Assembly: GCA_013298775.1 (NCBI GenBank) | Contig: JAAFIV010000042.1 | Span: 1 to 38,087 of the forward strand | Direction of reading: 5' to 3' | DNA: 38,087 bases | Origin: Ignavibacteria bacterium | GTDB taxonomy: Bacteria; Bacteroidota; Ignavibacteria; Kapaibacteriales; UBA4661 | Shown: one piece after another, positions 17,911 to 23,363 of the stretch | Layout: each line of letters starts with the position of its first letter | How positions within the stretch are numbered: the first letter of the stretch is position 1 | Program-made: the position numbers and the translations under genes | The notes under the pieces: model-generated | The model's database searches: none | Seen by the model: the letters and a program-made list of their open reading frames with translations, nothing else | What the model was told of the DNA's origin: nothing

Positions 17911-18153
17911 TTACTCAAAAAGCTCTCGAAGAATATCCTCTTTCGAGCGTTGCTGATGGAGGGCAATATCGCTACAAATAGCCGAGAGCGTCCCAATTCT
18001 GAGGGGATTATGGCGAGGAATCGTGATGTGATGCTGTTCAGGAGTGTTGGTGGTCAGGCGGATATGACTGCCTGTTTGCCGCACAACAGCATAGCCGTAG
18101 CGTTCGACTAATTGAGCTAATTCTATACCCGTAATATTGCGTGGAAGCCTCAT
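17911..18153 (-). CDS. hicA: HicA-like toxin (mRNA interferase)
   Basis: An 80-residue protein with the HicA/YcfA layout, a small double-stranded-RNA-binding-like fold. The start RLPRNITGIELAQLVERYGYAVVRQTGSHIRL carries the catalytic histidine in the G-S-H motif, followed by HHITIPRHNPLRIGTL and a C-terminal helix. HicA cleaves mRNA when free of HicB. It is downstream of hicB with an 11-base gap, in the antitoxin-first order, so the two are co-transcribed. It converges on the end of the exporter operon. Confidence 0.88.
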   Translation of the reverse strand: MRLPRNITGIELAQLVERYGYAVVRQTGSHIRLTTNTPEQHHITIPRHNPLRIGTLSAICSDIALHQQRSKEDILRELFE

Positions 18154-18164
18154 GGAAACAGGAG

Positions 18165-18377
18165 TTAGGCGATTTCTAGTAGTTCTTGATGAACGACTCG
18201 TAGGCGCACAAATTTTGGGTACTGTTCCGGCTCAAAATGACACTCAACAGCATCTTTAATCGCAAGACGCAATTCCTCTAATGTCTCGGCTTCGGTAAAG
18301 ATACTTTCTTCCAGCGCACGTGCTGTATAGCCGCCTTCAGGGTCGGCTTCAACGAGGAATGTAAGTTCGTGATTCAT
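18165..18377 (-). CDS. hicB: HicB-like antitoxin
   Basis: A 70-residue protein with a partial RNase-H-like HicB fold: LTFLVEADPEGGYTARALEESIFTEAETLEELRLAIKDAVECHF. No C-terminal DNA-binding domain is present, so operon repression would need another factor or the short C-terminus. The frame continues upstream to 18497, but the extra 40 residues resemble nothing in the family, and MNHELTF is the normal HicB start. A candidate promoter lies just upstream. It neutralises the HicA toxin encoded immediately after it. Confidence 0.85.
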   Translation of the reverse strand: MNHELTFLVEADPEGGYTARALEESIFTEAETLEELRLAIKDAVECHFEPEQYPKFVRLRVVHQELLEIA

Positions 18378-18386
18378 AGCAAAACT

Positions 18387-18415
18387 GTTATAGAAGTACC
18401 GTAGAAATGAGTAAA
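18387..18415 (-). promoter_or_regulatory. candidate promoter of hicBA
   Basis: On the minus strand, TTTACT (plus coordinates 18410-18415) and TATAAC (18387-18392) are spaced by exactly 17 bases and lie 10 bases upstream of the hicB ATG. This would give an almost leaderless transcript. Confidence 0.4.
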
Positions 18416-18587
18416 CCGTGCAAAGGAAATTAGCATTTTCTGCAACCAGATACAACCGATAAGAAACCGCTACTATCATTCTGACAACGAATAACACCTG
18501 ATATATGCTATCCGCGAGACTTTATACGCTCTGTCCGCTTCTTTTTGGAAAATATTTTTTGACTCATTATCATTTTTTAGAGCTACG

Positions 18588-21383
18588 ATGAATACTACAC
18601 AAAAAATCCTCTCCATGCTTGTATTGACCGTGCTTCTCGGCATATCAAGCAATGCGCATCTTCTTGCGCAAGTCGTCAATATTCCCGTTACGTTTCGCCT
18701 CGTTGATTCCGCCAAAACCTACGTGCGAGCGTTTGTGGCGGGGGATTTCAATAACTTCGGACCATCTTCTGGTATGCGCATCCTTGCTGGTGCGCCGTCC
18801 GAAATGCAGTACGACAGCATTGCTCGTGCATGGACGAAAACTATTCTACTCCAACGCGGCACAGCGTACAAGTACATTTTCCATATTCATAAAAACGCTG
18901 ACGGCACCGACTACGACTGGATTGCTGACCCGCTCAATCCACCAACTGAAGGTCTTGGTACGGGCAATCGCACCTCGACGATTGTTGTTACAAGTCTTGC
19001 GTTTGCGCAAATGCGTTTGGATTCTGCACAAGGAATGGTGCGCGGTGTAAGCGGCAGACTGGACGGAAGCGGTACAATCACACAGCTTCTGCTTCTTATT
19101 GAACGCAACACTAGTCTCAATGCGCCCTTCGATACCATTTCGCTCATGCGGAATCTGAATGGGCAAACACGCACATTTCAAGCCACATTGCCGCAAGCAA
19201 TTCCTACAAACCGCACCGTGCGCCTTTTTGTGCGGGATGCAGACGGTAATAGTTCTACTTTTCGTTTCATGCAAATTCAGCCTTCCGTACCCGAATGGGC
19301 AAAAACTGCCGTGTGGTATCAAATTTTCCCCGAGCGTTTTCGCAATGGCGATACATCCAACGACCCCACGCGAGCCAGCCTGGAAGCGGGTAATGGGGTT
19401 TCCGATAAATGGCGTACCACCGAGTGGGGCAGCGATTGGTTTGCCCGCGACGAATGGGAAAAGGAGTTTGGAAGCGGCGTTGGCGGCTTTTATACCAACG
19501 CGCTCCAGCAGCGTCGCTACGGCGGCGACTTACAAGGCGTGTTGGACAGATTGGACTATTTGCAAAGTTTAGGAATTACGGCAATCTATTTCAATCCGAT
19601 ATTTTTTGCCGCAAGTATGCACAAATACGACGGTTACGCGCATCATCACATTGACCCGTATTTCGGACCGAATCCGAAAGCAGACTTAGAGCAAATTGCC
19701 CGTGAAAATGCCAGTGCAGACCCCTACAATCCCAAAACGTGGGCGTGGACAAGCGCGGATTCGCTCTTTTTGAAAGTTCTCCGCGAGGCAAAACGCCGCA
19801 ATATCCGTATTATTTTGGATGGCGTGTTTAATCACACAGGGCGTGGCACGGCGGCGTATCAAGACCTTGTGAAAAATCAGGCTGCATCTCGCTTCAAGGA
19901 TTGGTACATCGTGCAAGCCTTCGATAATCCCGCAACGCCAGAGAATGAATTTCGTACCAAGGGTTGGAGCGGCTTTGCTGGATTGCCCGAAATTGCTCGT
20001 AGCCCTGATGGAGCAACGCTTGCCGACGCGCCGAAACAATACTTTTTCGATGTTGCAAAGCGTTGGATGGATCCCAACAACGACGGAAACCCCGCAGACG
20101 GCATAGATGGCTGGCGTTTGGACGTTGTGCCGGACGCACCGATTGGCTTTTGGAATGAGTGGAATATTGTTATTCGCCGCATCAATCCTGAGGCGTACAC
20201 GAGCGCAGAAATCTGGGACGCGAACACGCCAAGTGTTGTTCAAAATGGCAATTTTTCAGGCGCAATGAACTACTGGACGTTTATGCAGCCTGTCATCGGC
20301 TACTTCACGCTCGACCACAATATAACGCCCGATATGTTTAATTCGATGGTGGAATCGCGCTGGAGGATGTTCCCGCCGAGTGTTCAAGCTGCTATGCAAA
20401 ATCTTGTGGAGTCGCATGATACCGAGCGCATCAGTTCATTTATTTTGAATCCGAATACGCAGCAGCAGTTCAGTTTCACGCGCAATGCGTGGGGCAATCG
20501 TGCTTACGATGTGCGCCGTCCGCGAGGAGATGAACGCGAGAAACACAAACTGATTTCAATGTATCAAATGGCTTCCAAAGGCGCACCAATGCTGTACTAC
20601 GGAACAGAATCCGGCATTTGGGGCGGACACGACCCCGATGACCGCAGCCCGATGAACTGGGCAGATATTCGCTTCGCGCCACAAGCTCTCTCGCCCTCGC
20701 TCATGCGCACGGAGGACGACATGAATTTTGACAGTACGCTTTTTCGGCATTATCAAGCCATCATTCGCGCTCGAAACAGCACTGCATCATGGGTTTCGCA
20801 AATAAAAGGTGCGGGACAACTCATGGTAATTCAGCGTACAGGCAGCACCAATGCTCAGGTTTCGGTCATTGATTCTCTGCCAACGGCATCGAAGCGGTTT
20901 CAGATTACCGTGTTGAACCGCACGAAAGATACCGTTACACAAACCATTACCGATAGTCAGTTTGCCAATGCTGCTGCATTCGCACCGCTCTACTACACAC
21001 GCGGCAGCGCAGCATCGGTGCGCTTTCGGAACGAATCGCGTGGCTTTACCATCACGCTTCCGCCTTTTAGCGGAGCGATTATTGCGGGGAATAATCAAGC
21101 ATTGGTGAGCGTTCGCCAAAGCACGGAATCAGTGCAAGCGAAAGCGTACCCACAACCCTTTACAAGCGAAACCACGCTTCAATACACGCTTCCCAGCGCG
21201 AGTACCGTTTCAATAAAAGTCATTGATGTTTTGGGACGCGAGTTATGGAGCCGCGACGCGGGTACAATGCCCGCAGGAGCGTATGACATCTCTCTTTCTG
21301 GTGATGGCTTGCCGCAAGGAACATATTTTTGCCTTGTCAGTACGCAGTTTGGTGTAGAGCGTGTACGCTTGCTCAAGCAGTAA
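18588..21383 (+). CDS. secreted GH13 alpha-amylase with T9SS C-terminal sorting domain
   Basis: A 931-residue glycoside hydrolase. Order: signal peptide (1-28, ending HLLAQ); a CBM48/AMPK-like starch-binding region (about 33-135: VAGDFNNFG, YKYIFHIH); a second small beta domain (about 147-232); the GH13 barrel (about 238-730); a beta-sandwich; and a type IX secretion sorting domain (about 850-931: YPQPFTSETTLQYTLP, IKVIDVLGRE, GTYFCLV). Catalytic motifs are DGVFNH (D411), GWRLD (R510, nucleophile D512), E541 in SAEIWD, and SHD (H610, D611), so it should be active. The overall style is neopullulanase/cyclomaltodextrinase-like. It is probably exported and attached to the cell surface or released, degrading starch or glycogen outside. 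A 16-base leader (18567-18582) is repeated before the next gene. Confidence 0.93.
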   Translation: MNTTQKILSMLVLTVLLGISSNAHLLAQVVNIPVTFRLVDSAKTYVRAFVAGDFNNFGPSSGMRILAGAPSEMQYDSIARAWTKTILLQRGTAYKYIFHIHKNADGTDYDWIADPLNPPTEGLGTGNRTSTIVVTSLAFAQMRLDSAQGMVRGVSGRLDGSGTITQLLLLIERNTSLNAPFDTISLMRNLNGQTRTFQATLPQAIPTNRTVRLFVRDADGNSSTFRFMQIQPSVPEWAKTAVWYQIFPERFRNGDTSNDPTRASLEAGNGVSDKWRTTEWGSDWFARDEWEKEFGSGVGGFYTNALQQRRYGGDLQGVLDRLDYLQSLGITAIYFNPIFFAASMHKYDGYAHHHIDPYFGPNPKADLEQIARENASADPYNPKTWAWTSADSLFLKVLREAKRRNIRIILDGVFNHTGRGTAAYQDLVKNQAASRFKDWYIVQAFDNPATPENEFRTKGWSGFAGLPEIARSPDGATLADAPKQYFFDVAKRWMDPNNDGNPADGIDGWRLDVVPDAPIGFWNEWNIVIRRINPEAYTSAEIWDANTPSVVQNGNFSGAMNYWTFMQPVIGYFTLDHNITPDMFNSMVESRWRMFPPSVQAAMQNLVESHDTERISSFILNPNTQQQFSFTRNAWGNRAYDVRRPRGDEREKHKLISMYQMASKGAPMLYYGTESGIWGGHDPDDRSPMNWADIRFAPQALSPSLMRTEDDMNFDSTLFRHYQAIIRARNSTASWVSQIKGAGQLMVIQRTGSTNAQVSVIDSLPTASKRFQITVLNRTKDTVTQTITDSQFANAAAFAPLYYTRGSAASVRFRNESRGFTITLPPFSGAIIAGNNQALVSVRQSTESVQAKAYPQPFTSETTLQYTLPSASTVSIKVIDVLGRELWSRDAGTMPAGAYDISLSGDGLPQGTYFCLVSTQFGVERVRLLKQ

Positions 21384-21439
21384 ACATCCTTAAAAACGAG
21401 TAATGATGAAGTGTACAGCCTCATTTGCTATAATTTCTT

Positions 21440-21585
21440 ATAACTAGTCAGGTATATCCCCGTCAGGCGGCTGAAGAGTGCGTAAACGCTGCCTTACGAC
21501 GGGTGCGTCGCTTGAACACCACTCGCCGGACGGCTACTGCACTTGTGATAACAGCCGCCCGACGAGATAGTACCTGACCAGTTAC
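21440..21585. mobile_element. miniature inverted-repeat element, IS66-like ends, interior type A (copy 1)
   Basis: The 146-bp element has ends ATAACTAGTCAGGTA and TACCTGACCAGTTAC (two mismatches over 15) and a perfect 8-bp flanking direct repeat AATTTCTT at 21432-21439 and 21586-21593. The interior pairs GTCAGGCGGCTG with CAGCCGCCCGAC and can fold into nested hairpins. It is closely similar along its length to 32498-32641. It sits ten bases upstream of the leader shared by the amylase gene and the gene at 21617, so it interrupts that gene's promoter region. Confidence 0.88.
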
Positions 21586-21616
21586 AATTTCTTTTTATCA
21601 TTTTTTAGAGAATGTT

Positions 21617-22123
21617 ATGAAAAACTTTCTCAAAGCCGTTCTATTCCTTGCGTTCACAGGCACAGCAGGAATAGCATCACAAACAACTTTGCTTGCACAA
21701 CCAGCTTCCGCGAAAACAGCATTTATTGAGCCAAAACTGGATGCTGTTCGGAATGATATGATTGGTGGTGTTTCTGGTGCAATCGGTGGAACAGCAGCAA
21801 TTACGCACTTGGAGGTCATCAGCAAGACTGACAGCAAGAGCGATACGCTTTCCATTCTTTCCGCCTTCGACCCCGAAACACGCACCTTCCGCGCACTTCT
21901 ACCCAAGCGTATTTCTTTGAAGAGCGCACTGTTCCTTGTTGCGACGGATGCTTCAGGGAATATGATTTCGTATCAATACACAATTCAGCAGCCAAGTATT
22001 TCTGAGGAATGGGCAAGTGCAAACCATTGGGACAAGCAATTTTCCGACCGTGTTTGGAAAGAATCAAGCCCCGCGCAGGAATGGAAAAATATCAAACAAT
22101 GGGAAAAGTCATTTTTTAAATGA
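21617..22123 (+). CDS. secreted protein, paralogue of the amylase N-terminal region without the catalytic domain
   Basis: This 168-residue protein has a signal peptide (1-28, ending TLLAQ). Residues about 52-137 align with amylase residues 147-247: MIGGVSGAIGGTAAITHL matches MVRGVSGRLDGSGTITQL, TRTFRALLPKRI matches TRTFQATLPQAI, and QQPSISEEWA matches IQPSVPEWAK. The match continues a few residues into the start of the barrel (HWDKQF against VWYQIF) and then stops. There is no catalytic barrel and no T9SS domain. A 16-base leader identical to that of the amylase gene (21595-21610) lies directly before it. It is probably a partial duplicate of the amylase gene; a carbohydrate-binding role is a guess. 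Confidence 0.72.
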   Translation: MKNFLKAVLFLAFTGTAGIASQTTLLAQPASAKTAFIEPKLDAVRNDMIGGVSGAIGGTAAITHLEVISKTDSKSDTLSILSAFDPETRTFRALLPKRISLKSALFLVATDASGNMISYQYTIQQPSISEEWASANHWDKQFSDRVWKESSPAQEWKNIKQWEKSFFK

Positions 22124-22859: not shown

Positions 22860-23363
22860 TCAAGCTGGCGCGTTTTCGGTTGTGCCGTTATGGTTACGAG
22901 CAAGCGCAGCCAAGCCAGAAATGCCCATCGGCGCGTTGGCAAGGCGCACGTTCAGTTGGTTTGCTCGCTCGCCGAGTTCCGAGAGCGTCAGGCTTTTACA
23001 CAGCTGATGTAGGCGAATACGCATTCCCGTCCAGTTTTCATGCGCTGGACACGGGTCGGCATGACCGCAGCCAGGCAAGCCAAACAAACATTCATGGAAA
23101 ATATCCGAACCATCTATCGCGTCAATAATATCCGCCAACGTAATCGAAGAAGCGGGACGCGCTAACGCAATACCGCCATTCGGACCGCGATACGAAACCA
23201 TTATCCCTACTTGCGTGAGGTTTTGCAACACCTTTGTAAGAAAATGGAACGAAATATTCAGTTTTGTAGCGATTTGTTGAATCGAAACATATTCGTTTTT
23301 GGGGAGCGAAGCCACATAAATTGCGGCTTGCACACCATACACACAGCTTTTTGACAACAGCAT
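22860..23363 (-). CDS. Rrf2 family transcriptional regulator with three-cysteine cluster
   Basis: A 167-residue Rrf2/NsrR/IscR-family repressor. The N-terminal winged helix-turn-helix (SKSCVYGVQAAIYVASL, VSIQQIATKLNISFHFLTKVLQNL, GIMVSYRGPNGGIALARP) is complete. Three cysteines, C92, C99 and C105, occur in ECLFGLPGCGHADPCPAH, matching the iron-sulfur ligand region. It therefore probably senses redox state, nitric oxide or cluster supply. AGGA lies eight bases before the ATG. It is divergent from the NtrC-type gene, so it could regulate the shared 290-base region and itself. Confidence 0.92.
   Translation of the reverse strand: MLLSKSCVYGVQAAIYVASLPKNEYVSIQQIATKLNISFHFLTKVLQNLTQVGIMVSYRGPNGGIALARPASSITLADIIDAIDGSDIFHECLFGLPGCGHADPCPAHENWTGMRIRLHQLCKSLTLSELGERANQLNVRLANAPMGISGLAALARNHNGTTENAPA

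Follow-up and report, generated by a model that had tools for sequence, protein, structure and literature searches.

A small gene beside a T9SS amylase gene in an Ignavibacteria bacterium: probably a retained partial duplicate without catalytic residues

The window analyzed here is the whole of contig JAAFIV010000042.1 (38,087 b), part of the 5.19-Mb, 99% complete genome of an Ignavibacteria bacterium. On the forward strand it carries a gene of 931 codons at 18588..21383, which encodes an amylase with a sorting tail for the type IX secretion system (T9SS), and, downstream of it at 21617..22123, a small gene of 168 codons; both open reading frames (ORFs) lie where an earlier note on this DNA had placed them. 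The small protein begins with a putative signal peptide (judged by eye only, as was that of the amylase), followed by an immunoglobulin-like (Ig-like) domain at residues 34 to 127 and a Trp-rich tail at residues 128 to 168. According to our analysis, the small gene is probably a retained partial duplicate of the neighboring amylase gene.

The amylase is laid out as a signal peptide, a domain at about residues 29 to 127, an Ig-like domain at about residues 137 to 231, a GH13 barrel, and a T9SS type A tail. We label the first of these domains CBM48-like, an assumption drawn from its position and look. The barrel matches PF00128 in Pfam with an E value of 4.8e-43, and the stretches DGWRLDV, AEIWD, and ESHDTER, starting at residues 507, 540, and 608, are those which we take to carry the Asp/Glu/Asp triad. 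Barrel match, motifs, and a predicted fold like those of TVA I and TVA II (Z of about 40) mark the protein as a GH13 enzyme. Its C-terminal sorting domain, which matches TIGR04183 with 31.9 bits (cut-off of 23), and the single match to SprA_N in the genome (117.9 bits), the only machinery gene searched for, mark it as T9SS type A cargo; tails of this type occur at at least 100 places in the genome among the matches listed (E value of 0.001 or better). Neither N-terminal domain of the amylase is recognized by Pfam, and none of nine family members matches a Pfam CBM family up to an E value of 10. A profile of these nine members gave a best E value of 2.6e-9 against neopullulanases, on a short stretch only (the best rows cover 37 of 150 positions). 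A second amylase encoded in the same genome (C10:88782-91496) is 53% identical to the one in the window.

BLASTP aligned residues 35 to 166 of the small protein (21719..22114, 131 codons of which entered the codon model) with residues 138 to 294 of the amylase (18999..19469), with 45 of 159 positions identical, 65.9 bits, and an E value of 4e-17. The local alignment score is 167, whereas 1,000 shuffles averaged 36 and reached 59 at most (66 for the mature part), and the alignment is therefore well above background, which was one of the checks proposed in the earlier note. The homology claimed there is real, although the range of amylase residues 147 to 247 given for it was too short, as the alignment covers the small protein nearly to its end. 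The common region comprises the Ig-like domain before the barrel and the first 60 or so residues of the catalytic domain, 23 of which are missing in the small protein. The description of the small protein as equal to the non-catalytic domain thus holds for one of the two N-terminal domains (sequence comparison detected no CBM48-like domain in it) but leaves out the altered piece of the catalytic domain. In a family alignment of 131 codon pairs, 30 of 91 residues are identical in the Ig-like part, as are 14 of 40 in the tail. The small protein matches 12 of the 26 columns that are invariant in eight family amylases; the domain accounts for 2 of these (of 4) and the tail for 10 (of 22), and five of the 12 are Trp columns. 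W147, W156, and W162 of the small protein are spaced 9 and 6 residues apart, as are W275, W284, and W290 in the amylase. The alignment of the tail spans the 23-residue gap and is consequently less secure than the alignment of the domain. The first strand of the barrel is indeed aligned, as had been claimed, but it is changed from WYQIFPERF in the amylase to WDKQFSDRV in the small protein, where AlphaFold2 predicts a helix with low confidence.

The homology stops at the equivalent of amylase residue 294, before the three motifs; lacking catalytic residues, the small protein, judged by its sequence, cannot be an amylase. TIGR04183 matches neither the protein nor the place of its gene among the 100 genome matches listed, in agreement with the earlier statement that a T9SS domain is absent. 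Pfam returned no match for the small protein, and NCBIfam gave insignificant matches only (E values of 0.025 and 0.11). The reading frame is unbroken: 168 codons are open from ATG to stop, and the homology stays in one frame across every gap. We also considered whether the gene is the start of a longer pseudogene, but no amylase homology was detected downstream of the stop codon up to 22860, where a single match is at chance level (E value of 5.2). The signal-like stretches of both proteins end in LLAQ, and the similarity of signal peptides reported earlier stands to the extent that such a judgment by eye allows.

AlphaFold2, supplied with an alignment (A2) containing eight amylase slices, predicted seven strands at residues 35 to 121 of the small protein, with mean predicted local distance difference test (pLDDT) values of 80 to 97 over blocks of ten residues. 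The blocks from 121 to 168, which make up the tail, were predicted as helical with low confidence (block means of 49 to 59). The whole amylase, modeled with 18 relatives, likewise shows seven strands at residues 137 to 226, with moderate confidence (block means of 59 to 88). The order of the strands and one short helix agree between the two models, which were compared by order and not by superposition and are not fully independent because of the amylase slices in A2; the structural check suggested in the earlier note thus came out in favor of matching folds. The structures retrieved with VIA-align for the small model are fibronectin type III (FnIII)/Ig-like and other sandwich chains, the best being 8dek_B (Z of 8.8, root mean square deviation [rmsd] of 2.3 over 84 residues), a resemblance which may be a mere common arrangement. 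Foldseek found no match to the small domain at an E value of 0.001 or better. No CBM34 entry is among the 50 VIA-align matches listed, which excludes nothing.

In an unrooted tree of the common region, the small protein and the window's amylase are grouped together (99/98, 200 of 200 bootstrap trees). Their end branches measure 1.79 and 0.19 changes per column, respectively, a nine-fold difference. Amylase slices were obtained from 12 of 17 outside loci, and all 12 were placed in alignment A3. Both genes are preceded by the same 16-base leader, TTATCATTTTTTAGAG, located on the forward strand at 18567..18582 upstream of the amylase gene and at 21595..21610 upstream of the small gene; the match is exact, as the earlier note had it, and these are the only two exact copies in the genome. 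The leader was also considered as a general genome motif, a possibility that found no support, since matches with up to two mismatches number 8 versus 11 for a reversed control pattern and only two are exact. By eye, no copy was seen within 120 bases upstream of the other seven family amylases. Identity at third codon positions is 36% versus the 25% expected for unrelated bases, and 24 codons are identical at the 44 identical residues versus 20 expected. That the 16-mer is unchanged although synonymous sites are nearly saturated suggests that the leader itself is under constraint. Taken alone, an unrooted, long-branched tree is also compatible with a split of the small gene before the family amylases diverged; leader and adjacency favor the window's amylase as the parent. 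Tree, leader, and strand order together support the proposal that the small gene arose by partial duplication of this amylase gene.

Stand-alone homologs of the small protein were sought in 40 relatives and in 394 other genomes of the phylum, two sets which overlap. None was found in the 40 relatives, four of which match within amylase-length frames of 931 to 963 residues, nor in the 394 genomes, eight of which match, all within frames of at least 510 residues. A contig search suited to close relatives and a comparison of the best 80 of 576 named amylase loci were also negative, the latter with one weak match inside a UBA4661 amylase (E value of 0.57). The search in related genomes suggested earlier therefore returned no free-standing copy, although a fast-evolving ortholog could be missed by searches of this kind. 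Two side observations concern sequences outside the window. A 1,001-residue frame in a different family of the phylum (L035, G245:C36:29740-29976) matches the Ig-like domain of the small protein with an E value of 2.4e-4. In another genome, a fragment at a contig start (L137:2-199, G002:C641) matches amylase residues 32 to 99 about 3.6 kb before the full amylase of that genome and resembles a further partial copy, truncated by the contig boundary.

The substitution pattern of the small gene, the remaining check advanced in the earlier note, was analyzed with a GY94-type codon branch model written for the present analysis. Fixing the ratio of nonsynonymous to synonymous rates (omega) at 1 on the branch of the small gene is 5.5 log-likelihood (lnL) units worse than leaving it free, and imposing the amylases' own omega costs 1.6 lnL units and is not rejected; from other starting points, an omega of 0.1 is better than 1 by 4.7 lnL units overall. 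An omega of 1 is thus rejected, which speaks against the neutral rate of a pseudogene only as far as saturated synonymous sites and a single sequence allow. Differences at the three codon positions number 74, 51, and 84 of 131, a signal which comes partly from the amylase branch, and five of six TGG codons are kept in the small gene. In neutral nucleotide simulations, the frame stayed open in 35 of 4,000 runs (0.9%) at 0.5 changes per site and in 18 of 4,000 (0.45%) at 0.7, with amino acid identities of 36% and 26%, respectively, compared to the 34% observed (44 of 131). Simple decay is disfavored because of the open frame, the rejection of omega = 1, and the retention of Trp codons, although saturation limits the test and these results do not amount to proof of present function.

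Known systems offer some guidance on what a protein of this kind might do. The amylase model aligns with members of the neopullulanase/cyclomaltodextrinase/maltogenic amylase group, namely TVA I (5z0u; Z of 40.5, rmsd of 2.5, 468 residues) and TVA II (1jib; Z of 40.1, rmsd of 2.1, 452 residues). A further structure, 8jnx, aligns from residue 136 onward (Z of 36.7, rmsd of 5.5, 528 residues), and the Ig-like domain of the amylase therefore occupies the N-domain position of the TVA group, where CBM34-type N-domains are likewise Ig-like sandwiches directly before the barrel. Unlike the enzymes of this group, the amylase carries a T9SS tail and matches no Pfam CBM family, and the small protein is without barrel and catalytic residues. 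Archaeal GH13_20 enzymes carry CBM48 and then CBM34 before the barrel (PMC9781549), a plan which seemingly is present in the amylase as well. CBM34 is known inside whole enzymes, whereas the domain of the small protein is free, has its own signal-peptide-like start, shows no family match, and contains no Trp. Among the titles and abstract openings listed in a survey of the literature, none describes a GH13 N-domain copy that is free and secreted, a statement confined to those listed. Truncated paralogs kept after partial gene duplication are known in general. The small gene resembles them in being shortened, located beside its parent, and faster evolving; unlike the general case, it is bacterial and T9SS related.

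The best explanation overall, to which we give an even chance, is that a partial duplicate specific to this lineage has been retained, with an exported non-enzyme acting via protein contact as its product. The small protein would be exported by the Sec pathway and stay in the periplasm. There, with less certainty, the free copy of the N-domain would dock on the amylase during its periplasmic passage and would hold or modulate the enzyme up to its export by the T9SS. The Trp/Phe pattern retained in the tail would belong to the docking interface. The analogy on which docking rests is that in neopullulanase and maltogenic amylase dimers the N-domain covers some of the partner's barrel. For a maltogenic amylase, PMC3777949 describes a model with the N-domain of one chain lying over a portion of the other chain's barrel, and dimerization is lost upon N-terminal truncation. 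Of the mechanisms offered here, docking on the amylase is the likeliest, though we put it forward tentatively and would sooner expect it to fail than to hold. A fuller version, in which an inter-subunit domain was copied, freed, and specialized for escorting or regulating, in the periplasm, an amylase that the T9SS exports, with the common leader serving co-expression, appears unlikely.

Several points weigh against reading the small protein as a selected contact partner of the amylase. The docking interaction is proposed by analogy, with dimerization of the T9SS amylase assumed from distant relatives, and since the amylase should itself leave the periplasm, a lasting complex is not obvious. 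The model of the tail is of low confidence, and its amphipathic moment is unremarkable, being equaled in 324 of 5,000 shuffles. The small protein is an orphan in all of these searches. The free codon model stops at the bound of the branch length with synonymous sites saturated, and therefore no value of omega is obtainable; taken by part, an omega of 0.1 is better than 1 by 2.6 lnL units for the Ig-like domain alone and by 2.0 for the tail alone (twice the difference being about 5 and 4). Frames stayed open in 112 of 4,000 simulations at 0.35 changes per site and in 360 of 4,000 at 0.2, and the open frame would thus be less surprising should the amylase side account for a large share of the divergence. 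A decaying remnant, that is, a functionless truncated duplicate still open by chance, would fit the long end branch of the small protein, the lack of relatives in the genomes and loci searched, and its lower GC content at third codon positions (0.42 versus 0.53 in the amylase gene), and the N-terminal amylase fragment in G002 suggests that such fragments may arise repeatedly. We nevertheless consider this reading, which the earlier note had listed, improbable in view of the intact single-frame homology, the codon model, and the kept Trp codons, to which the signal-peptide-like start and the unchanged leader are added. Shortened, strongly changed copies of this sort are common products of evolution, and the present one looks kept rather than decaying.

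The starch-binding partner also named in the earlier note found little positive support. Such a periplasmic glucan-binding protein, whose Ig-like domain or Trp-rich tail would hold maltodextrins for uptake or hydrolysis, could draw on the fact that the domain occupies the position of the starch-binding CBM34 of GH13_20 enzymes (PMC9781549) and on a tail with five Trp and three Phe in 41 residues. However, the Ig-like domain has no Trp and two Tyr in the small protein and none of either in the amylase, the domain richer in aromatic residues, the CBM48-like one (two Trp, five Tyr), is the one that was dropped, and the nine family members lack a Pfam CBM match. Moreover, the Trp residues of the tail correspond to those of the amylase catalytic domain and were therefore inherited, not gained. 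Taken together, glucan binding seems to us a doubtful explanation, about on a par with decay. A decoy or competitive modulator that blocks dimerization or export of the amylase would be the negative form of docking; the derivation from the same amylase and the common leader make co-expression plausible, but the strong RNA fold between the genes (z of -4.3) may separate the transcripts, and the interaction is hypothetical; the decoy is the least probable of these explanations. If the small protein does act on its parent, it would illustrate how partial duplication can equip a secreted enzyme with a partner of its own, and the pair would provide a simple test case for whether periplasmic factors attend to T9SS cargos one by one. 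Were it just a late remnant, the case would be ordinary. In kind, the small gene is ordinary, and the idea that a client enzyme gave rise to its own partner protein is an unusual and unproven possibility.

Upstream of the amylase gene, on the reverse strand, a HicA toxin gene and a neighboring ORF occupy 17911..18497. The match to PF07927 (E value of 2e-11) covers 17911-18153, while the ORF at 18165-18497 has no Pfam match and is HicB by position only. In two related genomes, G006 and G007, an FtsX gene, a YafQ-type toxin gene, and an NtrC-type gene are consecutive, with no hicA, amylase gene, or small gene between them, and in G009 the interval from FtsX to NtrC is likewise free of amylase matches. 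The genome nearest by FtsX (G005, 87%) has a different gene after FtsX and no amylase match at an E value of 1e-20, and the stretch from G001 stops 1.3 kb past FtsX and is uninformative on the amylase segment. In the amylase tree, built from 23 of 26 loci (L043, L048, and L035 were left out, having no frame by the motif rule), the C10 amylase groups with copies from G007 and G002, and the window's amylase forms a separate long branch inside the family, with G007 closer to it and G006 outside. As both of these genomes lack the segment, the simplest reading is that the region from about 17.9 to 22.2 kb (hicA, neighboring ORF, amylase gene, and small gene) was gained in the lineage of the present genome, which does not imply that hicA and the amylase gene arrived jointly. 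An Rrf2-type regulator gene (22860-23363) sits between the YafQ-type toxin gene and the NtrC-type gene in the window; the latter two are adjacent in G006 and G007, where no Rrf2 match was found.

Between the amylase gene and the small gene lies an interspersed repeat of 146 bp with inverted ends (21440..21585), flanked by 8-bp repeats, AATTTCTT, at 21432-21439 and 21586-21593. The intergenic gap of 233 bases shrinks to 79 if the repeat and one flank are removed, and the whole gap folds strongly as RNA, with none of 200 shuffles as good; a search of the window against Rfam at gathering scores was negative. The repeat is present at at least 40 places in the genome, 40 being the most candidates that the search scores, and among nine other genomes of the family it has one match in G005 and none in the other eight (E value of 1e-10). 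Of 10 copies compared, 8 have both ends by the pattern applied. Among these, identical flanking 8-mers occur in 5, including the copy in the window; the flanks differ by one base in 2 and are unclear in 1. By these features the repeat looks like a miniature inverted-repeat transposable element (MITE). IS66 elements produce 8-bp duplications and have ends starting with GTAA, and the repeat may be linked to them. Another copy of the repeat (L134, G000:C10:91605-91746) is located just upstream of the second amylase gene, about 40 bases before its likely ATG.

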